A model generated the notes under the pieces. That model saw only the letters and a program-made list of their open reading frames with translations, had not been told where the DNA came from and made no database searches. 24,264 nucleotides of DNA from a virus, in IMG/VR virus record IMGVR_UViG_3300042924_002106, positions 1 to 24,264 of that record. The stretch is one strand, 5' to 3'. Made by a program: the position numbers and the translations under genes. Within the stretch, counting starts at the first letter, position 1; the number at the start of each line of letters is the position of its first letter. Below, piece by piece: positions 9,250 to 22,033 of the stretch.

Positions 9250-9492
9250 ATGAGTGAAAAAGTTCAAATTGAAGGCAAATCAAATCTTGTCCGAGACATC
9301 AATTCAAAGGCCTTACTCAATACGGATTTAAGGTCTTTGAATGAATATCAGTTGAAGAAAAAGATGATGATTAGTATGGAACAAAATGAAAGTGAGATAA
9401 ATAACATAAAAGAACGTTTAAGTAAAATAGATTCGCTAGAATCTGATTTGAAAGACATTAAAGATTTGCTTCAAAGGATAATCAATAAATGA
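9250..9492 (+). CDS. Small coiled-coil protein, possibly virion-associated
   Basis: 80 residues, charged, with no signal peptide or membrane segment. The N-terminal half has SNLVRDINSKALLNTDLRS, a pattern I associate with small uncharacterised proteins of T4-like aquatic phages. The C-terminal half (about 45-79) is a strong heptad coiled coil with I/L at core positions (INNIKERLSKIDSLESDLKD). It starts one base after the giant DUF4815 gene, and its stop overlaps the start of fibre 1 (ATGA at 9489-9492), which indicates translational coupling. The context suggests a linker or assembly factor between the giant protein and fibre 1. That is inference; the function is unknown. Confidence 0.7.
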   Translation: MSEKVQIEGKSNLVRDINSKALLNTDLRSLNEYQLKKKMMISMEQNESEINNIKERLSKIDSLESDLKDIKDLLQRIINK

Positions 9493-12400
9493 CCGCTATT
9501 GCCAATGTAAGTTTAACAAACACATTTGATGAATGGAGAACTATTACCAATCAGTTGGTCTTTTTGGCCAATGAAGTTGAAGCAAATGGAAATCTTGTAA
9601 GAGTTCAATCTAACACTTCTGCTATCAGAGTTACCGCCAACATTGGTCGAGGCGATATCATTTATATAAGTGCGAATGTAAGTTATAACATTGCAGATCA
9701 ATCTAGAGCAAATCTAGCATCTGCTAATGTTGTTAATGCAGTTCACAATGTTCTTACAGTTGCTTTTGCTCAAGCAAACACATCATATAACCATGCCAAC
9801 GCTGCATTCTTTCAAGCTAATCAGGCTTTCTTAGAAGCAAACACTGCCGAAACATGGGCTGTAGCTGCTTTTAATCGCGGTAACAACGTATTTATACACG
9901 CAAACTCTTCATATAATCAAGCTAATCAAGCATTCTTTCAAGCTAATCAGGCTTTCTTAGAAGCAAACACTGCCGAAACATGGGCTGTAGCTGCTTTTAA
10001 TCGTGGTAATACCGTATTCACACACGCCAATTCTTCTTATAATCAAGCTAATCAGGCATTTTCACAAGCTAATGCGGCAAATGTTCTAGCATTTAACTCA
10101 GCGGCAGGAGCCAATGCTTGGGTAAATACGGTTTATGGTTTTACTAATACTTATACTAGAGCAGTAGGAACAGCAGGCAATACTTATGCAGAAACAACTG
10201 CCGCTGGTGCTAATGCCTATACTAGAGTAGTTGGTACAGCAGGCAACACTTATGCTGAAGCGACTGCCGCTGGTGCTAATGCCTATACTAGAGTAGTTGG
10301 TACAGCAGGCAACACTTATGCCATGACAATTGGAACGTCCTCTAATGCTTGGACAAATACTGTATTTGGATTATCAAATGCATATACACAAGCAGTAGGA
10401 ACAGCAGGCAATACTTATGCAGAAACAACTGCTGCTGGAGCAAATGCCTATACTAGAGTAGTTGGTACAGCAGGCAATAACTATACTATAACTGTTAGTG
10501 CGGCATCTAATGCTTGGACAAATACTGTATTTGGATTATCAAATGCATATACACAAGCAGTGGGCGCAGCAGGCAATACTTATGCTAGAGTGGTTGGTAC
10601 AGCAGGCAACACTTATGCACAAGTTATTGGTTTAGCATCAAATGTAATGTTAGGAGATGCCTTTTTCCAGGCAAATCAAGCTTTTGCGGTGGCAAATAAT
10701 GCGGCTGGAAATACTACAATCTTGATTGGCAGTGCCTTTGGTCAAGCCAATCAAGCATTTAATACTGCCAATACAGCGGCAGCAAATGCTTTAGGTGCCT
10801 TCTTAAGATCAAATATAACATTTACTCATGCTAATGCTGCCTTCTTCCAGGCAAATCAAGCCTTTGCTGTGGCTAATGCTGCACCAGCTAATGCTGCCTT
10901 CTTCCAGGCAAATCAAGCTTTCAATACTGCAAATACATCAGCAGCAAATGCTCTAGGCGCTTTCTCTAGATCAAATATAACATTTACTCATGCTAATGCT
11001 GCCTTCTTCCAGGCAAATCAAGCTTTTGTTGTGGCCAATACCGCAAATATCAGAGCAGAAGATGCCCACTCACGAATTGACACATTAGTTTTGACAAGCA
11101 ATAGTAACACCGCAATTGTTACTGATATTGCTTTGAGTGCATTTAATAAGGCAAATTTAGCAAACATAACTGCTGAAAATTCTTTTTTCCAAGCTAATCA
11201 AGCATTTTTCCAAGCTAATCAAGCGTTTGCGAAAGCCAATTCAACAACATATACATCAAATGTGGTAATTTCAGTAACAGATAATACAAATGCTGCGCTT
11301 AGAATTACACAAACAGGTACCGGTGATGTAATTAGAGTTGAAGACTCTGCTACCGATGCTACTCCTTTTGTAATAAATTCTTCTGGTTATGTTGGCATAG
11401 GTGCATCAAGTCCTTCAGTGGCGTTAGATGTTGAAGGAACAACAGTAGAATCATTTGTTGGTACTGGTAGTGTTTCTGGAAACGTTTTATCTGTAACAAT
11501 AGTGACATCGGGAACGCTCTCTGTTGGAGACTATATCACATTTGATAATTTTGGTCTGAAATTTGGTGCTTATATTAGAACATTCAGCACGGGTTCGGGT
11601 GGAACAGGAAATTATTTCTTAAGTGAATCTGGATCAGTATCGTCTAGTACCTTTAGATCGGCAGATTTGAGAGATAGAACGATAAGTATTACTAAGAATG
11701 ATTCCGTTATTCAGCCTGGCGAACCCATTGGTCTAATTCAGTTCAAATCGACAGATGCTTCAATCGACACGAAAGATGAAACAAGAGCGTTCTTAGGCGC
11801 TCAAGCGATATCACTCGATGGATCAGTTGATCTTATTTTAGGAACAGCAGTAGGAACAAACTCTGCATCCGAAAGACTTAGAATTACGAAAGATGGCGCT
11901 CTGTCATTTAACGGAGCAGCAGTGGGTGCGGCTGGCACAATTTTGAGATCGCAAGGCGCATCTTTGCCTATGATCTACGAAGCCGATAAGGCATACGATC
12001 AAGCTAACGCTGCCAATGTTCTAGCATTCAACTCTGCTGCTGGTGCTAATGCATGGGCTAATGTGATTGGTGTAAATGCAAATGCTTATGCAAACGTTGT
12101 CGGTCAAAGATCAAACAACTTTGCACTTTCTCTTGGTACACAATTTAATAGCATTAACACTTATGTTACATTAACAGGAACTGCTGTTAATGCTATTACT
12201 GGCTCAGCTTTTTTCCAGGCAAATCAAGCATTTGCTCAAGCTAACGCTGCCAATGTTCTAGCATTCAACTCTGCTGCTGGTGCTAATGCATGGGCTAATA
12301 CAATTGGTGTTAGATCAAACAACTTTGCACTTTCTCTTGGTACACAATTTAATAGTCTTAATACATATGTTTCATCAACAGGAACTGCTGTCAATGCTAT

Positions 12401-14702
12401 AAGTGGTGCAGCTTTCTTCCAGGCTAATCAAGCCTTCTTTACTGCAAATAATGCTTTACCTAAAACTGGCGGCACGATTAGTGGTGATTTGATCATTAGT
12501 GGCAACATTACTATTTCAGGCAACACGACATACACAAATACCCAGACTCTTCTGATTGGTGACAATATTTTTGTGTTGAATGCCGATCTGCCTTCAACTT
12601 CTGCGCCTTCAGAAAATGCTGGTATGACTGTCAATAGAGGTAATGCTGCTAATGCTGAAATTGTTTGGAATGAAACTGACGATAGTTGGACATTCAATAG
12701 CGGCACAGGAACATATCTAAACTTAGCATCAAACACAGATGTTTATACAATTGGTCTTGCATCAAATGCTTACGCAAATGTTATCGGCCAAAGATCAAAC
12801 AACTTTGCACTTTCTCTTGGTACACAATTTAATAGTCTTAATACATATGTTTCATCAACAGGAACTGCTGTCAATGCTATAAGTGGTGCAGCTTTCTTCC
12901 AGGCTAATCAAGCCTTCTTTGTTGCTAATACTTCTGGCGATGAAGCTGCTGGTGCATTCTTAAGAGCTAATGGCGCATTTAATCAAGCTAATCAGGCATT
13001 TGCGAAAGCCAACTCAACATCATTTACATCTAACGTAGTCATTTCTGTTGCAGATAGCACCAATGCAGCACTAAGAATTACACAGACTGGTACAGGCATT
13101 GCTCTGCTTGTTGAAGACAGCACGAATCCCGATAGTACCCCAACAGTCATCACGGACGCAGGACGGATCGTCACTGGCAGTGATACAGCTTACAGTGTGG
13201 ATAACACATATGGCGGCCAAATTACCCCGCGTATCCAGACCCACGGCACCACGACTGAGAGTGCGGCACTCGCTGCAACATTGTGGACGACCTCGGGCGC
13301 TGGTAGTCAGGCAGTTCTTTCCAAATCTCGCAGTGGAACAATCGGCACCAACACAATTGTGCAAAACAACGATGATCTTGGTGCCATTGTATTTGATGGC
13401 GATGATGGTTCCTTGTTCACTGTTGCTGCATCCATAGTTGGATCTGTTGATGGGACACCTGGAGCAAATAATATGCCAGGTAGACTCGTTTTCAGCACAA
13501 CCGCTAACGGCGCATCAGTCCCAACAGAACGTATGCGTATTACTGCTAATGGTAATATTGGCATTGGCACAACATCTCCATCAGCAAATCTTCATGTTGT
13601 TGGCAATGCAATAATTTCTACTGCTCTATCAGTAGGCACAATAAATGTTGCTCCAGCAATTGGTGCAGCATTTGATAAAGCAAACGCAGCTAACGTCTTA
13701 GCATTTACATCTGGTAATGAAGCTCAAGGTGCATTCTTGAGATCAAACGTTGCATGGCTTCATGCCAATGCGGCTTTTTTCCAGGCAAATCAAGCCTTCG
13801 CTGACGCTAATACTGCCGAAGCGTGGGCAGCAGGCGCTTTCTTAAGGGGTAACGTTGCTTTCAGTCAAGCTAACCAGGCATTTGCTGTTGCTAACACATC
13901 TGGCGCTGAAGCTGAAGGTGCCTTCTTAAGAAGTAACGTCACATTTGCTCATGCTAATGCTGCTTTCTTACAGGCTAATCAGGCTTTTGCGAAGGCTAAC
14001 GCTGCTAACGTACTTGCATATAACGCATCACTATCTACGGTTAAAGCCACAAATCTTGATGGTGGTGCTACAGGACAAATTGCTTATCAGACAGCAGCAG
14101 ATACTACAGGCTTCTTAAGTGCCGGCACGTATGGTAAAGTATTAAAATCTTCTGGATCAGGTGTTGCTCCTATTTGGGATACAGTTCCAACTTATGCAGA
14201 TAGTTATACTCTTTTCGGAACATCAGGTATTTCTGGAACTGCAACTGAAGTAAGTGGCTTAAATGCAACTTATGTGGAATATGCTGTGCCAACATGGGCA
14301 AGAAAAATTACAATCTTACTTAATCAACTTGCTCCTGATGGAACAGGAAATGATATTGGTATTAGACTGGGCGATTCAGGAGGCATTGAGACAACAGGAT
14401 ATGTTGCTGGTTCAGCAATATTGACTGGCGGTATAGGTAATTATCACGCAACATTTACTAATGGATTTTTCATTAACGCATATACTTATGGAATAACTTA
14501 TACAGGATCTATAGTTCTTACCAGAATGGGCGGTGAAACAACTTGGATATGTTCTGGTGTTTTGACTGATGATGGTACCGGCACTATGATGTTAATATCA
14601 GGAAGAAAAACTCTATCGGGCAATATTACTACGGTGAGAATCCTTGCTGAAGGTGGTACAACATTTGATATTTTAGGCGGTTTTTCAGTAGCATATGAAT
14701 AA
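9489..14702 (+). CDS. Long tail fibre 1, heptad/hendecad repeat protein
   Basis: 1737 residues. A short non-repeat head (about 1-85, starting MTAIANVSLTNTFDEWR) is the likely virion anchor. The shaft alternates heptad tracts (AFFQANQ-type; about 90-200, 395-590, 1390-1515), an 11-residue tract (VGTAGNTYAET-type; about 205-390) and mixed tracts. Three beta modules interrupt it: about 587-836 (with VGIGASSPS), 988-1080 (LPKTGGTISGDL, ISGN repeats) and 1176-1390 (with NIGIGTTSPSANLHV). The NLDGGATGQIAYQTAADTT segment near 1520 is a motif common just before fibre tips. A beta-rich tip fills about 1570-1737. No S74 peptidase/chaperone domain is visible at the C-terminus. Repeats and module order indicate a host-recognition fibre; the receptor is unknown. 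A chaperone-like gene follows 11 bases later. Confidence 0.87.
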   Translation: MTAIANVSLTNTFDEWRTITNQLVFLANEVEANGNLVRVQSNTSAIRVTANIGRGDIIYISANVSYNIADQSRANLASANVVNAVHNVLTVAFAQANTSYNHANAAFFQANQAFLEANTAETWAVAAFNRGNNVFIHANSSYNQANQAFFQANQAFLEANTAETWAVAAFNRGNTVFTHANSSYNQANQAFSQANAANVLAFNSAAGANAWVNTVYGFTNTYTRAVGTAGNTYAETTAAGANAYTRVVGTAGNTYAEATAAGANAYTRVVGTAGNTYAMTIGTSSNAWTNTVFGLSNAYTQAVGTAGNTYAETTAAGANAYTRVVGTAGNNYTITVSAASNAWTNTVFGLSNAYTQAVGAAGNTYARVVGTAGNTYAQVIGLASNVMLGDAFFQANQAFAVANNAAGNTTILIGSAFGQANQAFNTANTAAANALGAFLRSNITFTHANAAFFQANQAFAVANAAPANAAFFQANQAFNTANTSAANALGAFSRSNITFTHANAAFFQANQAFVVANTANIRAEDAHSRIDTLVLTSNSNTAIVTDIALSAFNKANLANITAENSFFQANQAFFQANQAFAKANSTTYTSNVVISVTDNTNAALRITQTGTGDVIRVEDSATDATPFVINSSGYVGIGASSPSVALDVEGTTVESFVGTGSVSGNVLSVTIVTSGTLSVGDYITFDNFGLKFGAYIRTFSTGSGGTGNYFLSESGSVSSSTFRSADLRDRTISITKNDSVIQPGEPIGLIQFKSTDASIDTKDETRAFLGAQAISLDGSVDLILGTAVGTNSASERLRITKDGALSFNGAAVGAAGTILRSQGASLPMIYEADKAYDQANAANVLAFNSAAGANAWANVIGVNANAYANVVGQRSNNFALSLGTQFNSINTYVTLTGTAVNAITGSAFFQANQAFAQANAANVLAFNSAAGANAWANTIGVRSNNFALSLGTQFNSLNTYVSSTGTAVNAISGAAFFQANQAFFTANNALPKTGGTISGDLIISGNITISGNTTYTNTQTLLIGDNIFVLNADLPSTSAPSENAGMTVNRGNAANAEIVWNETDDSWTFNSGTGTYLNLASNTDVYTIGLASNAYANVIGQRSNNFALSLGTQFNSLNTYVSSTGTAVNAISGAAFFQANQAFFVANTSGDEAAGAFLRANGAFNQANQAFAKANSTSFTSNVVISVADSTNAALRITQTGTGIALLVEDSTNPDSTPTVITDAGRIVTGSDTAYSVDNTYGGQITPRIQTHGTTTESAALAATLWTTSGAGSQAVLSKSRSGTIGTNTIVQNNDDLGAIVFDGDDGSLFTVAASIVGSVDGTPGANNMPGRLVFSTTANGASVPTERMRITANGNIGIGTTSPSANLHVVGNAIISTALSVGTINVAPAIGAAFDKANAANVLAFTSGNEAQGAFLRSNVAWLHANAAFFQANQAFADANTAEAWAAGAFLRGNVAFSQANQAFAVANTSGAEAEGAFLRSNVTFAHANAAFLQANQAFAKANAANVLAYNASLSTVKATNLDGGATGQIAYQTAADTTGFLSAGTYGKVLKSSGSGVAPIWDTVPTYADSYTLFGTSGISGTATEVSGLNATYVEYAVPTWARKITILLNQLAPDGTGNDIGIRLGDSGGIETTGYVAGSAILTGGIGNYHATFTNGFFINAYTYGITYTGSIVLTRMGGETTWICSGVLTDDGTGTMMLISGRKTLSGNITTVRILAEGGTTFDILGGFSVAYE
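9806..10057 (+). repeat. 126-bp tandem repeat, two copies (fibre 1 heptads)
   Basis: Copies at 9806-9931 and 9932-10057; the first 72 bases are identical and later differences are few. 126 bp is 42 residues, exactly six heptads, so gain or loss of a copy keeps both frame and coiled-coil register. Confidence 0.9.
10201..10332 (+). repeat. 66-bp tandem repeat, two copies (fibre 1 hendecads)
   Basis: Two copies (10201-10266 and 10267-10332), identical over the first 55 bases. 66 bp is 22 residues, or two 11-residue repeats (AGANAYTRVVG + TAGNTYAExxA). A further partial relative lies near 10432-10490. A nearly identical segment of about 56 bp at 10341 recurs at 10506, 165 bp (five hendecads) away. 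Confidence 0.9.
12312..12440 (+). repeat. 129-bp perfect direct repeat, left copy
   Basis: Identical to 12792-12920, 480 bp downstream (160 codons, in frame). It encodes RSNNFALSLGTQF through SGAAFFQANQAFF. The two copies flank the LPKTGG beta module of fibre 1, so recombination between them would remove the module cleanly. Confidence 0.93.
12792..12920 (+). repeat. 129-bp perfect direct repeat, right copy
   Basis: Right partner of the copy at 12312-12440. The base before the left copy and the bases after each copy differ, so the identity has sharp limits, as expected after a recent duplication or gene conversion. Confidence 0.93.
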
Positions 14703-14707
14703 AAGGA
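14703..14707 (+). promoter_or_regulatory. Ribosome binding site for chaperone-like gene 1
   Basis: AAGGA directly after the fibre 1 stop and six bases before ATG 14714. The equivalent gene after fibre 2 has the same arrangement. Confidence 0.6.
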
Positions 14708-14713
14708 AAAAAT

Positions 14714-14944
14714 ATGGAAGATCAAGATAAAATAAATTATGAAAATAATTTAAATAAAGTACGCAATCGTAGAAATTTTTTGTTAAGCGAAAGCGATCTA
14801 TACGTTCTTTCTGATAGATGGGATTGGTATACTCAAGATCAAAAAGATGCCTGGAAAAAATATCGTCAAGATTTAAGAGATATGCCTGAAACTTTTTCTA
14901 AAAATCCAAGTTGGCCTCCAACTTGGCCAACAAAACCGGAATAA
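14714..14944 (+). CDS. Tail-fibre assembly chaperone-like protein 1 (Phage_tail_APC type)
   Basis: 76 residues. The core reads SESDLYVLSDRW, then a YT..QK.A...YRQDLRDMPETF block, and ends in a Trp/Pro-rich tail (WPPTWPTKP). The LP/S-DRW, YRQxLRDxPET and WPxxP pattern is that of small phage tail-assembly chaperone-like proteins placed directly after fibre genes. It is paralogous to the 98-residue product of 21737-22033 but lacks that protein's first 30 or so residues. It probably helps fold, trimerise or attach fibre 1, inferred from family and position. It could instead be a minor fibre-associated component. Confidence 0.75.
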   Translation: MEDQDKINYENNLNKVRNRRNFLLSESDLYVLSDRWDWYTQDQKDAWKKYRQDLRDMPETFSKNPSWPPTWPTKPE

Positions 14945-14947
14945 CAA

Positions 14948-15286
14948 ATGGCAACTTTTGAAGAACTCTATATTGATCAAGGCACAGACTACTCTAAGAA
15001 GATAGTTCTTAGAGACGAGTCAACAAACTCATTGATCAATGTGTCGGGCTATACTGTTCGCAGTCAAATGCGTAGATCATTCTATTCAACGAATGCTTCC
15101 GCAAATATCACTTGCACGATAACAGATGGAGCAAATGGAGAGATTACACTTTCACTTACTCCAAATGTTACATCAAACATTAAAGCTGGTAGATATATCT
15201 ATGATGTTGAAACTGTAGATGCTAACAACATTACTACTCGTATTCGTGAAGGTATCATCAACATTTATCCAGAGATCACACGATAA
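14948..15286 (+). CDS. Ig-like/BppU-N-like structural protein, function unknown
   Basis: 112 residues, beta-rich. Recognisable segments are LYIDQGTDYSKKIVLRDE (about 7-24), LINVSGYTVRSQMRRS (about 29-44), a GEITLSLTPNVTSNI strand pair and RYIYDVETVD (about 82-91). The order 'input, SGYTV, NGxITLSL, AGRYxYDVE' resembles the N-terminal domain of BppU-type baseplate proteins, and similar small proteins occur in T4-like aquatic phages. The stop overlaps the PAAR start (TAATG at 15284-15288), suggesting coupled expression with the spike tip. A baseplate or spike accessory role is inferred. The Shine-Dalgarno is weak. Confidence 0.6.
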   Translation: MATFEELYIDQGTDYSKKIVLRDESTNSLINVSGYTVRSQMRRSFYSTNASANITCTITDGANGEITLSLTPNVTSNIKAGRYIYDVETVDANNITTRIREGIINIYPEITR

Positions 15287-15609
15287 TGCCAGGCGCACAT
15301 AGAGATACAGATAGCAGATTTTGTGGAGCAAAGACTAAAGCTGGTGGGCAAGGAACTGTAAGAGTAAACGGTCTTCTTTGGGCAGTAGAAGGCGATGTTG
15401 ACACTCACTGCGATCAAGGATCATTAAGTGCAGTTTATGGCGCACTAAACGTTCGCATCGAAGGGAAACTCGTTATTTGTGCAATGGGAGACATGGCTGC
15501 TCCAGATAAGCTAGGTTGCTTCATCAAACATCCAACAGGTGCTACAAATCCAAAAGGACATTCAAACGATGTGATCGTATACGGAGGAGCTGCTGGCGGC
15601 GGTTCATGA
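15286..15609 (+). CDS. gp5.4: PAAR-type spike tip protein (T4 gp5.4-like)
   Basis: 107 residues; T4 gp5.4 has about 97. PAAR proteins form a small metal-stabilised cone that caps the gp5 tail spike and pierces the outer membrane. The sequence has the PAAR layout: an N-terminal MPGAHRDTDS, then VNGLLWAVEGDVDTHC (about 28-42), NVRIEGKLVICAMGDMA (about 55-71), GCFIKHPTG (about 77-85) and a NDVIVYGG end. His41, Cys42, Cys78 and His82 are candidates for the metal site; which of them bind is not shown by sequence alone. The gene sits between the two fibres and overlaps its downstream neighbour (ATGA at 15606). A Gly-rich end (GGAAGGGS) closes the protein. Confidence 0.83.
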   Translation: MPGAHRDTDSRFCGAKTKAGGQGTVRVNGLLWAVEGDVDTHCDQGSLSAVYGALNVRIEGKLVICAMGDMAAPDKLGCFIKHPTGATNPKGHSNDVIVYGGAAGGGS

Positions 15610-15941
15610 CTTGGTATTTCAATGAGATTGTTCGCTCAGGCAACTCACAGGCAAGAATCAAGAACTATTATCCAGACACAGGGTTAATAGTTCTTTATGA
15701 TATAAAGGGAGTCATAGAAGCTGGCTCAACCATTGTTGGTGATGAATCTGGAACAACAACAACTTTAACGAATTTTGTTATTGCAAGAGAGTTTGATTTA
15801 GGATATGAACCAGATTATTGGGACTATATACTAGAGAATGGAATTTATGACGATAGTGGCGACTTCATTGCCCTTGATGCTCACTTCACAGGCAAACCAA
15901 GTCAAGATTATCAGACAACTTATTGGATTGTATTAGGTTAA
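15606..15941 (+). CDS. Small beta-rich structural protein, function unknown
   Basis: 111 residues. I chose ATG 15606, which overlaps the PAAR stop as ATGA. An upstream in-frame ATG at 15516 would add 30 Lys/Arg/Cys-rich residues that are only the PAAR gene read in another frame. Residues about 8-58 (ARIKNYYPDTGLIVLYDIKG, then GSTIVGDESGTTTTL) look like the small beta module found in gp8 and gp14. The C-terminal half is acidic and aromatic (GYEPDYWDYILENGIYDD). Its stop overlaps the fibre 2 start (TAATG). Tight linkage to PAAR and fibre 2 suggests a spike or fibre attachment role; this is inference. Confidence 0.62.
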   Translation: MTWYFNEIVRSGNSQARIKNYYPDTGLIVLYDIKGVIEAGSTIVGDESGTTTTLTNFVIAREFDLGYEPDYWDYILENGIYDDSGDFIALDAHFTGKPSQDYQTTYWIVLG

Positions 15942-18900
15942 TGGCAGTAGCAATTTCAAATTTAACGGCTTATTGGGCAACATCAGCCAGCAGTGTGAAT
16001 ACTGCTATCAAAATGAATGCCAATGATGTTGTATCAGCGGCAAATTCTAAGTTACTAGATTTACAAGTCAATGATGTTTCTAAGTTTGTTGTATTTAAAA
16101 GCGGAAACACTGTTGCAAACGGAATTATAGTAGCAAATTCGTTTGTTACATCTGGCGGAATAAATCTCATCTCTGCTATTCAAACTATCAATGTTGGCAG
16201 TGGTGATATCGGTCCTGCCTTCTTTCAAGCCAATCAAGCGTTTTCTCAAGCTAATCAGGCTTTTGCTGCCGCCAACTCATCTTCTCCTCAATCAATTGGC
16301 GATGCGTTTGGTCAAGCCAACCTTGCGTTTGCCAAAGCCAATGCAGCTAATGTTCTAGCATTTAACACAGGTGCAGGCGCTAATGCATGGACTAATACTG
16401 TTTATGGCTTTATCAACACATACACTCAAACCGTAGGTACCGCTGGTAATGCTTATGCGAGAGAAGTTGGCACAGCAGGTAATGTTTATGCGAGAACAGT
16501 CGGTACAGCAGGTAACGTTTATGCAAGAGAAGTTGGCACTGCTGGAAATACATATACTCAGACTGTCGGCGCTGCATCAAATAGCTATGCAGACTCTCTA
16601 TTTGCATCATCAGGCGGATCAGCAGGACAAGCATTTAATAAAGCTAACACTGCCAACATTACAGCCGATCAAGCATTTAATAGAGCTAACGCAGCCAACG
16701 TTCTAGCTTTTAACTCTGCCGCAGGGGCTAATGCATGGACTAATACTGTTTATGGATTCATCAATACATATACTCAAACAGTTGGTACTGCTGGAAATAC
16801 TTATGCTCAGAGCGTTGGTGCAGCATCTAATCTACTAGTTGGTGCTGCTTTCTTTCAAGCTAATCAAGCCTTTGCTGTTGCTAATACTTCTGGCGCTGAA
16901 GCTGAAGGTGCCTTCTTCCAAGCTAATCAAGCATTTAATACTGCCAATACAGCGGCAGCAAACGCTTTAGGTGCGTTTACAAGATCAAATGTTGCATGGT
17001 TTCATGCTAATGCTGCCTTCTTCCAGGCAAATCAAGCTTTTGCTGAAGCCAACACTGCTGAAACATCAGCTTCGGCAGCATTCAATAAAGCTAATTCCGC
17101 CAATGTTCTAGCGTTCAATAGTGCTGCTGGTGCTAACGCATGGACCAATGCTGTTTATGGATTTACTAATACTTACATACAAACAGTAGGTGCTGCATCT
17201 AATCTATTAGTTGGCGCTGCTTACTCTCAAGCCAATCAAGCGTTCAACACCGCAAATACAGCGGCAGCAAACGCTCTAGGCGCTTTCTCTAGATCAAATA
17301 TAACATTTACTCATGCCAATGCTGCTTTCTCACAAGCTAATCAAGCTTTTGCTGTTGCTAATACTGCTGGCGCTGAAGCTGAAGGTGCCTTCTTCCAAGC
17401 TAACCAGGCTTTTGCACTAGCCAATGCTGCTAACGTTCTTGCGTTCAATGCTTTGCCAAAAACTGGCGGCACTATAACTGGTAATGTTTCTATAGTTGGA
17501 AATCTTTTCATATCAGGCAATAGTCAGTTTCAAAATGTAACTACATTGTCTATTGGTGATCCACTAATCTATCTGGCCGCAAATAACTATTCTTCTGATA
17601 TTGTAGATATCGGTTTTATTGCAAATTATGTAAACTCCACTGGTTCTAATGTTCATACGGGTCTATATCGTGAACATGAAAACAAGATGTATTACTTGTT
17701 CCAAGGATACGATAAAGAACCTGTTGATAATCATATTGGAGCGTTATCTAACAATATGACATTGGCTGTTCTTAACGCAGATTTGATCACATCAAATCTT
17801 GTATTAGGCGGCATAAACGCTATATCTTGGATATCAGGAGCATTTACAAGAGCTAACACTGCCAATATTACGGCCGATCAAGCATTTAATAGAGCTAACG
17901 CAGCCAACGTTCTAGCATTCAATAGTGCCGCTGGCGCCAATGCTTGGGTTAATACAGTTTATGGATTTACTAATACTTACATACAAACAGTTGGTACTGC
18001 ATCTAATGTCTGGTCTAACACAATCGGTGTATATGCAAATGCTTATGCAAACGTTATTGGAACAAGATCAAATAACTATGCTCTATCTATTGTTGGTCCA
18101 GCATTCAATCAGGCCAATTCTGCTAATGTTCTAGCATTCAATAGTGCTGCTGGCGCCAATGCTTGGGTTAACACAGTATATGGATTTACTAACACATATA
18201 CACAAACAGTAGGTGCAGCAAGTAATTCACTGGCGGTAGCGGCATTCTCTCAAGCTAATCAAGCTTTTGCACAAGCAAACACATCTTCTCCACAAACAGT
18301 TGCAGATGCTTTTGGACAAGCCAATCAAGCTTTTGCTCAAGCCAATGCTGCTAACGTTCTAGCATTTAACAGTGCTGCTGGTGCTAATGCGTGGGCTAAT
18401 ACAATTGGTGTAAATGCCAATGCTTACGCAAATGTTATTGGAACAAGATCAAATAACTATGCTCTATCTATTGTTGGTCCAGCTTTTAATAAAGCTAATG
18501 ACGCTAATGTTTTAGCATTTAACTCTGCCGCTGGTGCTAACGCATGGACTAACACTGTTTATGGATTTATCAACACTTATACACAAACTATAGGTGCATC
18601 ATCTAATGCATGGACTAACACTGTTTATGGACTAAGTAATACGTTTACACATACTATTGGCGGCGCAGCTTTTGGTCAAGCCAACTTAGCTTTTGCTAGA
18701 GCCAATGGTAGTTTTAATCAGGCTAATCAAGCTTTTGCTTTAGCCAATGCCGCTAATGTTTTAGCATTTAATGCTTTACCTAAAACTGGTGGAACTGTTA
18801 CAGGCGATCTTATTCTAACAGGCACCACTATTCTAATTAACAATTCGGCTGGCGCTGGTGGCACAGATGAAGGCGGTGAAATAAAACTTGCAAATCCTAC

Positions 18901-21727
18901 ATCAAATTCTATCCTTTCTGGTCCAATTGCTATTGACATTTATCAAAATAGGATTCGTTTCTTTGAAACAAATAGTCCTAATCGCGGAGCATTTATCAAT
19001 CTAGCTTCTACTAGTGCTGGTGCTGCTACCGATCTTCTAGCGTCACCATCAGCAACAGATACAGTAGCTAGAAATTCGGCAGGTGCAGCATTTGATAAAG
19101 CCAATGCCGCTAACGTTCTAGCATTTAATGCCTTACCGAACACAAACGGCGCAGTATTTAATGGAACTTTAACTGCGAGTGCAAATCTTTCAGCAGATAA
19201 AATAATATCGACAAACAACGGCAATGGTGAAAACTTCAGACTTGGTGATGATGCTTGGATCGGCGATACAAATATTGCTAATGCTTTTCGTATTAAAGGT
19301 CAACAAAACGCATCAATTGGTTACGTTATATTTGGACCAAACGACGGCAAACTTTTAGGTCGTGATGGTACAGGCCCCCTAACATATGACGGCAACAATG
19401 TTTGGCACGCTGGTAATGATGGAACGTCTTCGGGTTTAGATGCCGATCTGCTTGATGGTCAACAAGGTTCATATTACGCCATAGCTACTGATAGTGCTAA
19501 TGCATTCAATAAAGCCAATGGTGCCAACGTTTTAGCATTCAATAGTGCTGCTGGTGCCAATGCTTGGGCTAACACAATAGGCATATATGCAAATGCTTAT
19601 GCAAACGTTATTGGAACAAGATCGAATAACTTTGCTCTTTCTCTTGGAACTCAGTTTGATAGTATCAACACTTATGTTTTGAACACAGGTACTGCTGTTA
19701 ATGCTTATGCAAACGTTATTGGAACAAGATCAAATAACTATGCTCTATCCATTGTTGGTCCAGCATTTGATAAAGCCAACTCAACGACATACACATCAAA
19801 TGTAGTAATTTCTGTTACTGATAACACTAATGCGGCACTAAGAATTACTCAGACAGGTACTGGTGATGCAGTAAGAGTGGAAGACAGTGCAAATCCAGAT
19901 AGCACTCCATTCGTCATTACGGCAACAGGTGATGTTGGTATTGGTGTAACATCTCCCGATACAAAACTCGCAGTTGTAGGTAGTGGTCAAGGACTCAATT
20001 TTAATACTGCCGATAATCTTGGCGCATCAATTCTTGTTGGTGATAGCGGAACAGCAGCTCAAAATGGTGGTTCAATTGTATTCTCTGCATTTTCTGAAGC
20101 ATGGAAATTTGCTGCTATTAAATCACATGTTTTAAATGGCACATCAAATACAGTAGGCGACATTTCTATTCTTACTCGTCGTGTCACGACAGATTCAACA
20201 TTAACAGAAACAGCGAGATTTACATTTACAGGTAACGTTGGTATAGGAACAAATAATCCGCAATACAAACTTGACGTTTCTGGCGCAGTAAATGCTTCGG
20301 CCTTTCTAATTAATGGTATTCCTGCTCTTCCAAATACATCTGGCATTTCTTTTAATGGAAATCTAAATTTTCCAAATGGTAATGTATCTATCGGTTCAAC
20401 CACATCAGAAGGTCTTCTAACTCTTAGAGGTTATACTGGAGGCACTGTAGGTTCTGTTGTCGATAATTTTACAAAAACTCTTGTTATCGGTGGCGCTTAT
20501 AATCAACCTTATAATTCAGGCAATACAGTACTACTTCACATATTAGACTATGATAATGATACTGGTTCTGATGTTTATCCTGTCTACATTGAAGATGAAA
20601 ACAACATTGTTGACTTTTTCATAAACGCAGGAAATAACGGAACAATTAGCACGAAAAAAGTATATGTTGGAGGAAATTTAGGTATTGGCATTACATCTCC
20701 AACATCTAAGTTGCATGTTTCTGGCACAGCAAATATTACCTCTTCACTAGAAGTATTAGGATCAAACATAACATCTGCAATTGCAGCAGGCAACACGTTT
20801 ACACATACTATTGGTGGCGCAGCATTTTTCCAAGCTAATCAAGCCTTCGCTGATGCTAATACTGCTGAAACATGGGCAGCAGGAGCCTTCTTAAGAGGTA
20901 ACGTTGCATGGCTTCATGCCAATGCAGCATTTTTCCAAGCTAATCAAGCCTTCGCTGATGCTAATACTGCTGAAACATGGGCAGCAGGAGCCTTCTTAAG
21001 AGGTAACGTTGCATGGCTTCATGCCAATGCAGCATTCTTTCAAGCAAATCAAGCCTTCGCTGATGCTAACACTGCTGAAACATGGGCAGCAGGAGCCTTC
21101 TTAAGAGGTAACGTAGCGTTTAGTCAAGCAAATCAGGCATTTGCTGTTGCGAATGCGGCACTACCTTCTTCATCGTATACAGCAGCAGATGTTTTAAGCA
21201 AATTATTGACTGTTGATGGTACAGGATCATTATTAGATGCCGATCAGCTGGACGGTTGGCATCAATCACAACTTGGAGGAAAACAGTTAACAGCCGCTTC
21301 TGTAGGAACAGGTACTACGGCAGATTATAGTTGGGTTACTGCAGGATCTATAGATTGGTTAGGGCCGGCACCTGTTCATCTTAGTGTTATGCTTAGAGGT
21401 CTGAGTCATGGCGCAGCAACTTCTCAGCCACTTAGGATTCAGTTTTCGGATGATAAGGGTGTAACGTTTACGACAGCAATAAACATTTCTCCGCCTGTTG
21501 CGGCTTCTACAGCATTAAACGGACACATACTTGTTTACAGACCATCTGCAACAACATCAACTAAAGTTATAGTATGGAATACAAGCCCACAAGATCGTTC
21601 TAGTTCAAACGTAGGAACATGGGAACTTCCAGGCGCTGGCGGTACGGCAGCATTGACTAATGTAAGATTTGGTTTTGCTTCTGGTAACTTTGACGCAGGA
21701 ACAGTTTATGTTTATGCTTATAGTTAA
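15941..21727 (+). CDS. Long tail fibre 2, heptad/hendecad repeat protein
   Basis: 1928 residues from ATG 15941 (TAATG overlap); an in-frame ATG at 15923 adds only six residues from the preceding gene. The head (about 1-90, MAVAISNLTAYWATS) is unlike that of fibre 1. Heptad/hendecad shaft tracts span about 92-503, 632-940, 1183-1283 and 1607-1744. Beta modules include two LPKTGG blocks (about 504-630, 944-1050), a block with VWHAGNDGTSSGLDADLLDGQ (near 1150-1180) and a block of repeated VGIGxxxP/LGIGxxSP motifs (about 1283-1607). The tip (about 1744-1928) has LDADQLDGWHQSQLGG, then a beta-rich domain ending VYVYAYS. No S74 domain is visible. It lies just before gp13, where T4 has gene 12 and wac. 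A chaperone-like gene follows. Confidence 0.87.
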   Translation: MAVAISNLTAYWATSASSVNTAIKMNANDVVSAANSKLLDLQVNDVSKFVVFKSGNTVANGIIVANSFVTSGGINLISAIQTINVGSGDIGPAFFQANQAFSQANQAFAAANSSSPQSIGDAFGQANLAFAKANAANVLAFNTGAGANAWTNTVYGFINTYTQTVGTAGNAYAREVGTAGNVYARTVGTAGNVYAREVGTAGNTYTQTVGAASNSYADSLFASSGGSAGQAFNKANTANITADQAFNRANAANVLAFNSAAGANAWTNTVYGFINTYTQTVGTAGNTYAQSVGAASNLLVGAAFFQANQAFAVANTSGAEAEGAFFQANQAFNTANTAAANALGAFTRSNVAWFHANAAFFQANQAFAEANTAETSASAAFNKANSANVLAFNSAAGANAWTNAVYGFTNTYIQTVGAASNLLVGAAYSQANQAFNTANTAAANALGAFSRSNITFTHANAAFSQANQAFAVANTAGAEAEGAFFQANQAFALANAANVLAFNALPKTGGTITGNVSIVGNLFISGNSQFQNVTTLSIGDPLIYLAANNYSSDIVDIGFIANYVNSTGSNVHTGLYREHENKMYYLFQGYDKEPVDNHIGALSNNMTLAVLNADLITSNLVLGGINAISWISGAFTRANTANITADQAFNRANAANVLAFNSAAGANAWVNTVYGFTNTYIQTVGTASNVWSNTIGVYANAYANVIGTRSNNYALSIVGPAFNQANSANVLAFNSAAGANAWVNTVYGFTNTYTQTVGAASNSLAVAAFSQANQAFAQANTSSPQTVADAFGQANQAFAQANAANVLAFNSAAGANAWANTIGVNANAYANVIGTRSNNYALSIVGPAFNKANDANVLAFNSAAGANAWTNTVYGFINTYTQTIGASSNAWTNTVYGLSNTFTHTIGGAAFGQANLAFARANGSFNQANQAFALANAANVLAFNALPKTGGTVTGDLILTGTTILINNSAGAGGTDEGGEIKLANPTSNSILSGPIAIDIYQNRIRFFETNSPNRGAFINLASTSAGAATDLLASPSATDTVARNSAGAAFDKANAANVLAFNALPNTNGAVFNGTLTASANLSADKIISTNNGNGENFRLGDDAWIGDTNIANAFRIKGQQNASIGYVIFGPNDGKLLGRDGTGPLTYDGNNVWHAGNDGTSSGLDADLLDGQQGSYYAIATDSANAFNKANGANVLAFNSAAGANAWANTIGIYANAYANVIGTRSNNFALSLGTQFDSINTYVLNTGTAVNAYANVIGTRSNNYALSIVGPAFDKANSTTYTSNVVISVTDNTNAALRITQTGTGDAVRVEDSANPDSTPFVITATGDVGIGVTSPDTKLAVVGSGQGLNFNTADNLGASILVGDSGTAAQNGGSIVFSAFSEAWKFAAIKSHVLNGTSNTVGDISILTRRVTTDSTLTETARFTFTGNVGIGTNNPQYKLDVSGAVNASAFLINGIPALPNTSGISFNGNLNFPNGNVSIGSTTSEGLLTLRGYTGGTVGSVVDNFTKTLVIGGAYNQPYNSGNTVLLHILDYDNDTGSDVYPVYIEDENNIVDFFINAGNNGTISTKKVYVGGNLGIGITSPTSKLHVSGTANITSSLEVLGSNITSAIAAGNTFTHTIGGAAFFQANQAFADANTAETWAAGAFLRGNVAWLHANAAFFQANQAFADANTAETWAAGAFLRGNVAWLHANAAFFQANQAFADANTAETWAAGAFLRGNVAFSQANQAFAVANAALPSSSYTAADVLSKLLTVDGTGSLLDADQLDGWHQSQLGGKQLTAASVGTGTTADYSWVTAGSIDWLGPAPVHLSVMLRGLSHGAATSQPLRIQFSDDKGVTFTTAINISPPVAASTALNGHILVYRPSATTSTKVIVWNTSPQDRSSSNVGTWELPGAGGTAALTNVRFGFASGNFDAGTVYVYAYS
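16433..16597 (+). repeat. 33-bp tandem repeat, five units (fibre 2 hendecads)
   Basis: Units start at 16433, 16466, 16499, 16532 and 16565, each encoding VG(T/A)A(G/S)NxYxxx. Synonymous differences between units show that the protein pattern is kept while the DNA diverges. Confidence 0.9.
20821..21135 (+). repeat. 105-bp tandem repeat, three units (fibre 2 heptads)
   Basis: Units start at 20821, 20926 and 21031. The first two are identical across 105 bp; the third differs at scattered bases and more strongly in its last 25 or so. 105 bp is 35 residues, five heptads. A related single unit occurs in fibre 1 near 13770-13870. Confidence 0.93.
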
Positions 21728-21736: not shown

Positions 21737-22033
21737 ATGACAAAATACTTTCACACTGTAATTACATTAGATGGAGTTTTTGAAGTTCCTTTTACTCAAG
21801 AAGAAGCGACTGAAAGAGAATTACAAGAATTTCATGCTACTTGGGCAGGTCTAAGATTTGAAAGAGATCAGAAGCTACAAGAAACTGACGTTTTGGTCTT
21901 GCCTGATCGTTGGATGAGATATACTCCAGAAAAACAACAAGCTATATCAGATTATCGTCAGGCACTCAGAGATTTACCAGAAACAGTGGATGACCCATTC
22001 AATTTTACATGGCCAGAACCACCTAACATATAA
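21737..22033 (+). CDS. Tail-fibre assembly chaperone-like protein 2 (Phage_tail_APC type)
   Basis: 98 residues. An N-terminal beta segment (HTVITLDGVFEVPFTQEEA, about 6-24) precedes the chaperone-like core: RDQKLQETDVLVLPDRWMRY (about 49-68), YRQALRDLPET (about 79-89) and a FTWPEPP end. The core aligns with the 76-residue product of 14714-14944 (shared E.D..VL.DRW..YT, YRQ.LRD.PET, WP..P), so the two are paralogues serving two fibres. A role in folding or attaching fibre 2 is inferred from family and position. Its TAA stop is embedded in the late promoter of gp13. Confidence 0.78.
   Translation: MTKYFHTVITLDGVFEVPFTQEEATERELQEFHATWAGLRFERDQKLQETDVLVLPDRWMRYTPEKQQAISDYRQALRDLPETVDDPFNFTWPEPPNI

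Follow-up and report, generated by a model that had tools for sequence, protein, structure and literature searches.

In-frame repeats in two tail fibre genes of an uncultured T4-like phage as probable sites of unit gain and loss and of domain exchange

Results

The repeats that build two tail fibre genes in a virus record of 24,264 bases (IMGVR_UViG_3300042924_002106, analysed over its whole length and referred to as the window) are probably shaft units that serve homologous recombination, by which units would be added or removed in frame and domains and tips exchanged. The longest of these repeats, two perfect 129-nt copies (R2 and R3) on either side of an LPKTGG domain in fibre 1, may by analogy behave like the shorter repeats, at which relatives of the phage were found to differ by whole units.

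Exact repeats are confined to the two fibre genes

The window carries T4-type genes and, judged by this gene content, is a fragment of a T4-like (contractile-tail) phage. Structural genes beside the fibres include Gp8 (PF09215) and a neck protein (PF11649) identified with Pfam, as well as a DUF4815 protein, and PHROG matches include a head-tail adaptor (phrog_211) and a tail sheath stabilizer (phrog_227). Short shaft repeats (AFFQANQAF and the like) make up both fibres, and domains are placed between them; the shaft is rich in alanine and asparagine (Table 1). Pfam gave nothing meaningful on either fibre. Residues 1323-1406 of fibre 1 (approximately 13455-13706) match the solved chains 8ond (bd2133) and 8oml with E values of about 3e-5 to 5e-5, both of which we take to be Bdellovibrio fibre proteins. 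Between the fibre genes, 14948-15286 encodes a protein with similarity to the L-shaped tail fibre assembly families (phrog_3304), and the small product of 15286-15609 shows weak PAAR-like similarity (Pfam E 0.014; PHROG E 0.002). No near or distant DNA similarity to the window was found in the phage records searched, and a comparison of the fibre region with one genome per prokaryote species returned one weak relative.

Exact repeats of at least 20 nt form 73 pairs in the window, all of them inside the two fibre genes, where they cover 2905 of 11019 bases versus 0 of the 13245 other bases. Every pair is in frame, with within-gene offsets that are multiples of 3 and between-gene offsets that equal the frame difference. 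The R2/R3 pair is the longest, followed by the 113-nt pair at 20819/20924. The tabulation of fibre repeats covered loci up to L139; one of these, from another phage (L039:572-11404), is a fibre-like reading frame of 3611 aa in which exact repeats of at least 25 nt form 81 pairs, all in frame.

Table 1 Features of the two fibre genes, in window coordinates
Feature	Position	Strand	Basis or remark
Fibre 1 gene, 1737 aa, repeat-built tail fibre	9489..14702	+	ORF, translation, PHROG tail fiber families
Two 126-nt shaft units, fibre 1	9771..10022	+	Repeat analysis; comparison with L016
R1, older partial copy of the repeat core	12105..12151	+	47 nt identical to 12789-12835
R2, left perfect 129-nt copy	12312..12440	+	Exact repeat; also in L009
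LPKTGG domain (TANNALPKTGGTISGD...YLNLASN)	12441..12743 (right edge approximate)	+	Relatives align over these residues in unrelated shafts
Short shaft piece, domain to R3	12744..12791	+	Translation; resembles the stretch upstream of R1 (family D5)
R3, right perfect 129-nt copy	12792..12920	+	Exact repeat; also in L009
Fibre 1 tip and its tail-fibre-assembly chaperone (14714-14944)	13811..14944	+	PHROG; comparison with L009 and L011
Fibre 2 gene, 1934 aa, same construction as fibre 1	15923..21727	+	ORF, translation, repeat content
66-nt shaft unit and repeat, fibre 2	18537..18631	+	Comparison with L009 and L011
Three 105-nt shaft units, fibre 2 (113-nt exact repeat 20819/20924)	20819..21117	+	Comparison with L009 and L013
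Fibre 2 chaperone	21737..22033	+	Same PHROG families as 14714-14944

Relatives differ by whole repeat units in both fibres

Parts of the window have near-identical counterparts in seven distinct IMG/VR contigs (L009, L010, L011, L013, L014, L016 and L064), with L018-L020, L063 and L169 being duplicates of L009 in IMG/VR, and L015 a duplicate of L016. At 97-99% identity, relatives differ by exactly one unit at no fewer than three fibre repeats other than the 129-nt pair (66, 105 and 126 nt, among the first 141 of 268 pairwise indel entries). L009 and L011 have one fewer of the 66-nt unit near 18540 in fibre 2; near 20966 in the same gene there are two 105-nt units in L009 and L013 and three in L010, L011 and the window; and L016 has one 126-nt unit in fibre 1 versus two in the window. 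In each case the length difference matches the repeat period and comprises complete codons. The shorter alleles follow the left register first and then the right, with the switch inside the sequence that the registers share. The switch is clean for the 66-nt unit (within 18537-18565), nearly clean for the 105-nt unit (within 20966-21009, the exception being site 20932, which is out of order) and, for the 126-nt unit, mixed from approximately 9782 to 9911, where L016 is diverged and the right register also suits a few sites upstream. There were three unit events in 18783 aligned fibre bases, versus a single 3-nt gap, at a chaperone gene end, in 25027 aligned non-fibre bases, counts that rest on block boundaries taken from earlier alignment outputs. 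These comparisons, together with the domain and tip replacements described below, support recombination between in-frame repeats as a process that alters both fibres in nature.

A perfect 129-nt pair brackets the LPKTGG domain

A reading of the sequence without database searches had described R2 and R3 as identical, offset by a whole number of codons and bordered by differing bases, and all of this was confirmed: the copies form an exact maximal block of 129 nt, the offset of 480 nt is 160 codons (0 mod 3), and the bases at both flanks of the block differ. Each copy is exactly 43 codons in the frame of fibre 1, with codon borders at both ends, and the translation of both is RSNNFALSLGTQFNSLNTYVSSTGTAVNAISGAAFFQANQAFF. 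The repeat units at this place number three, since an older, partly matching copy (R1) lies upstream. All 43 codons agree between R2 and R3, and the probability of this by chance given the same protein is approximately 10^-17 to 10^-18 under the codon usage of the window, so the DNA identity is either recent or maintained; protein conservation alone is ruled out as its cause. Protein-identical stretches elsewhere in fibre 1 show codon agreement from 21/21 (12000/12237) down to 9/19 (10065/12237).

The segment between the copies, which begins TANNALPKTGG, had been taken as a whole to be an LPKTGG beta module. The LPKTGG domain occupies only approximately the first 300 of its 351 nt, and the remainder up to 12791 (about 48 nt) is shaft. 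An AlphaFold2 model of the domain, made from 12 sequences, contains strands only (mean pLDDT 60.7, pTM 0.42), is of too low a quality for structural comparison and weakly supports a beta fold; a domain profile search of solved structures gave no match better than E 0.27. The hexapeptide itself resembles a sortase motif by eye only, and its context seems to offer no ground for one.

Related domains occur in other phage contigs within different shaft types, at 41-62% identity to that of the window (96% for the copy in L009), and some of these relatives in unrelated shafts have the left joint TANNALPKxGGT in common. Weaker relatives (33-47% identity) are present in tail fibres of, among others, the marine cyanophages ACG-2014h and S-H9-1, Salicola phage SCTP-2 and Roseobacter phage CRP-207, which share an LPKTGG-type domain with the window but have no near DNA match to it. 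In fibre 2, from 19619 to 19826, an R-like segment is followed by the same downstream domain type with no LPKTGG domain between them. The domain presumably moves between fibres. It is located mid-shaft and not at the C-terminal tip, and so any effect on host binding is one that we infer.

The pair and its domain are retained in a relative

Among the seven near-identical contigs, R2/R3 is spanned by L009 only (IMGVR_UViG_3300045999_001572, from an independent data set). L009 has kept both copies with 0/129 differences each and the same spacing, and differs from the window at 21 of the 351 sites between them. Gain or loss of the LPKTGG domain at R2/R3 was therefore not seen in the one spanning relative, and a degenerate pattern for the repeat core retrieved no further IMG/VR contig at this place. 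Along 12164-13810 the differences in L009 are patchy, with none in 12213-12559, 28 in 12560-12956 and none in 12957-13603, after which they become dense; 45 of the differing codons are synonymous and 14 are not. Within the divergent block, R3 has 0/129 differences with 28/268 around it (Fisher p ~1e-5, a post hoc comparison). We read the patchiness as a mark of recombination between related phages.

No length difference in seven near-clonal pairs

Of nine pairs of related contigs examined in other phages, the seven at 99.9-100% identity had no length difference. Fibre repeats are documented within these seven for L055/L056 (tabulated, with 13 exact repeats that reach 25 nt or more) and L173/L174 (evident from secondary matches). 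Among the matches listed, L061/L062 (99.6-99.9%) differ by one 120-nt unit, and L033/L034 (80-92%) have a difference of 360 nt at two places. With no indel in seven near-clonal pairs, the process looks like evolutionary shuffling rather than fast phase switching, and fibre change appears to run on the scale of lineages. The sequence-only reading had proposed that recombination at the 129-nt pair changes fibre surface domains within a population. Change through repeats was found in kind, as unit indels at neighbouring repeats, but not for the 129-nt pair, where L009 keeps the domain, and change within a population was not borne out by the near-clonal pairs.

Tips and chaperones are exchanged at a shaft motif

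In both L009 and L011, the fibre 1 tip and its chaperone (13811-14920) are replaced by another tip and chaperone (L009:1648-2630 and L011:335-1317, opposite 13811-14944 of the window), and the two contigs have 0 differences from each other there over 1317 nt. On the left the exchanged piece is joined at AAFFQANQAF, and on the right it is joined where the chaperone gene ends. Tip and chaperone are exchanged as one piece, and the right flank is approximately 99% identical to the window. This swap is probably a host-range exchange. For fibre 2, L013 (1-1135) has the same tip with a different preceding domain, joined at the AAFFQANQAF motif. In L065 and L066 the homology to the window first becomes unbroken at 22030, where the gene of the fibre 2 chaperone ends; in L067 it does so at 21179.

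Discussion

In the mechanism that we propose, R2 and R3 would be copies of one shaft segment, 43 residues long, in a modular fibre with inserted domains, arising by duplication (or later conversion) of that segment so that it flanks the LPKTGG domain. Homologous recombination between copies, presumably by unequal crossing-over or by template switching in replication, would add or remove whole units, and would do so in frame because the shaft segments recur at the DNA level in one reading frame. Recombination with other fibres at the same motifs would lead to domain and tip exchange, and recombination of R2 with R3 should delete or duplicate 160 codons that include the LPKTGG domain.

The repeats could instead be left from one past duplication or domain insertion and be used too rarely to matter, the protein needing shaft before as well as after the domain and the identity of the DNA being a sign of recent origin. 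The unchanged arrangement in L009 and the constancy of near-clonal pairs in other phages agree with this, but three or more shorter repeats vary in the same two genes among few relatives, and the lack of differences in R3 amid a divergent block suggests continued homogenisation or exchange; we regard this explanation as doubtful, while giving it real weight. That same contrast, together with the identity of all four copies (two in the window, two in L009) around a domain segment that differs at 21 of 351 sites, could point to gene conversion that holds R2 equal to R3, mostly by non-reciprocal copying and not by deletion of the domain. The statistic was chosen after seeing the data, however, and the identical island in L009 (12752-12931) reaches past R3, by 40 nt to its left and 11 nt to its right, into sequence at which the two copies differ, so ordinary mosaic recombination between phages explains the identity equally well, and conversion as the main process is unlikely. 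A more speculative proposal, to which we give rather little credence, is that R2/R3 is a maintained exchange site: concerted evolution would keep the copies identical, whereas the cassette that they enclose would diverge and could be exchanged or lost, a position like that of an integron served by general recombination alone.

An assembly artefact, in which one true copy was used twice or differing copies were collapsed, deserves consideration for a repeat of this length. A k-mer of 127 nt is common in short-read metagenome assembly; 129 nt barely exceeds it, so that k-mers alone may not resolve the loop, and two of the five contig ends checked fall in exact repeats of these fibres. Such an error is nevertheless very unlikely, as L009, which belongs to another IMG data set, agrees in both copies, in their spacing and in the unique sequence that flanks them, and has a diverged domain in between. 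Action of a dedicated variation system at the domain, such as an invertase or a diversity-generating retroelement, is hardly credible. No supporting evidence for one was found: inverted repeats do not flank the domain, where a single 14-nt hairpin (12146-12198) was the only candidate and site-specific inversion was rejected, and the window proteins scanned with Pfam and PHROGs, covering part of the ORFs of a fragment, included no such enzyme and no reverse transcriptase of a diversity-generating retroelement.

Recombination at in-frame shaft repeats, the reading that we prefer, has parallels in other phages. Tetart 1996, by its title, reportedly concerns duplication of a fibre domain in a T4-like phage, with a change of the adhesin that alters host range. 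Domain duplication as a means of change is alike in the two cases, whereas that case involves the adhesin and host range and ours a mid-shaft domain known from sequence alone. Tetart 1998, again by title, is said to describe change of the fibre tip by recombination at conserved motifs; this is like the replacement of the tip with its chaperone in L009 and L011 relative to the window, except that the motif used here, AAFFQANQAF, is a shaft repeat of which each fibre has many copies. Passages of a study of EfV12-phi1 describe 1.8-kb in-frame tandem duplications in its tail fibre during coevolution (PMC6365445). The in-frame tandem gain of a large fibre segment with varying copy number is shared, whereas EfV12-phi1 is an Enterococcus phage under experimental selection with a much larger unit, and the variants found here are natural and of 66-126 nt, the 480-nt unit having shown no variation so far. 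In the portions of the open-licence literature on fibre evolution covered here (PMC6365445, PMC6027323, PMC6957217), nothing was noticed on this fibre family. By their in-frame repeats and natural unit-length alleles, the window fibres appear to fit a modular tail fibre of the T4/EfV12 type that evolves by internal-repeat recombination.

Short-read contigs of such fibres are fragile at the repeats, and so the domain content of fibres in metagenome phages may be under-described. The swap of the fibre 1 tip and chaperone is more striking than the 129-nt repeat itself, and the two genes are a natural case, from an uncultured phage, where few relatives suffice to read together the gain and loss of units, the exchange of domains and the exchange of tips with their chaperones.
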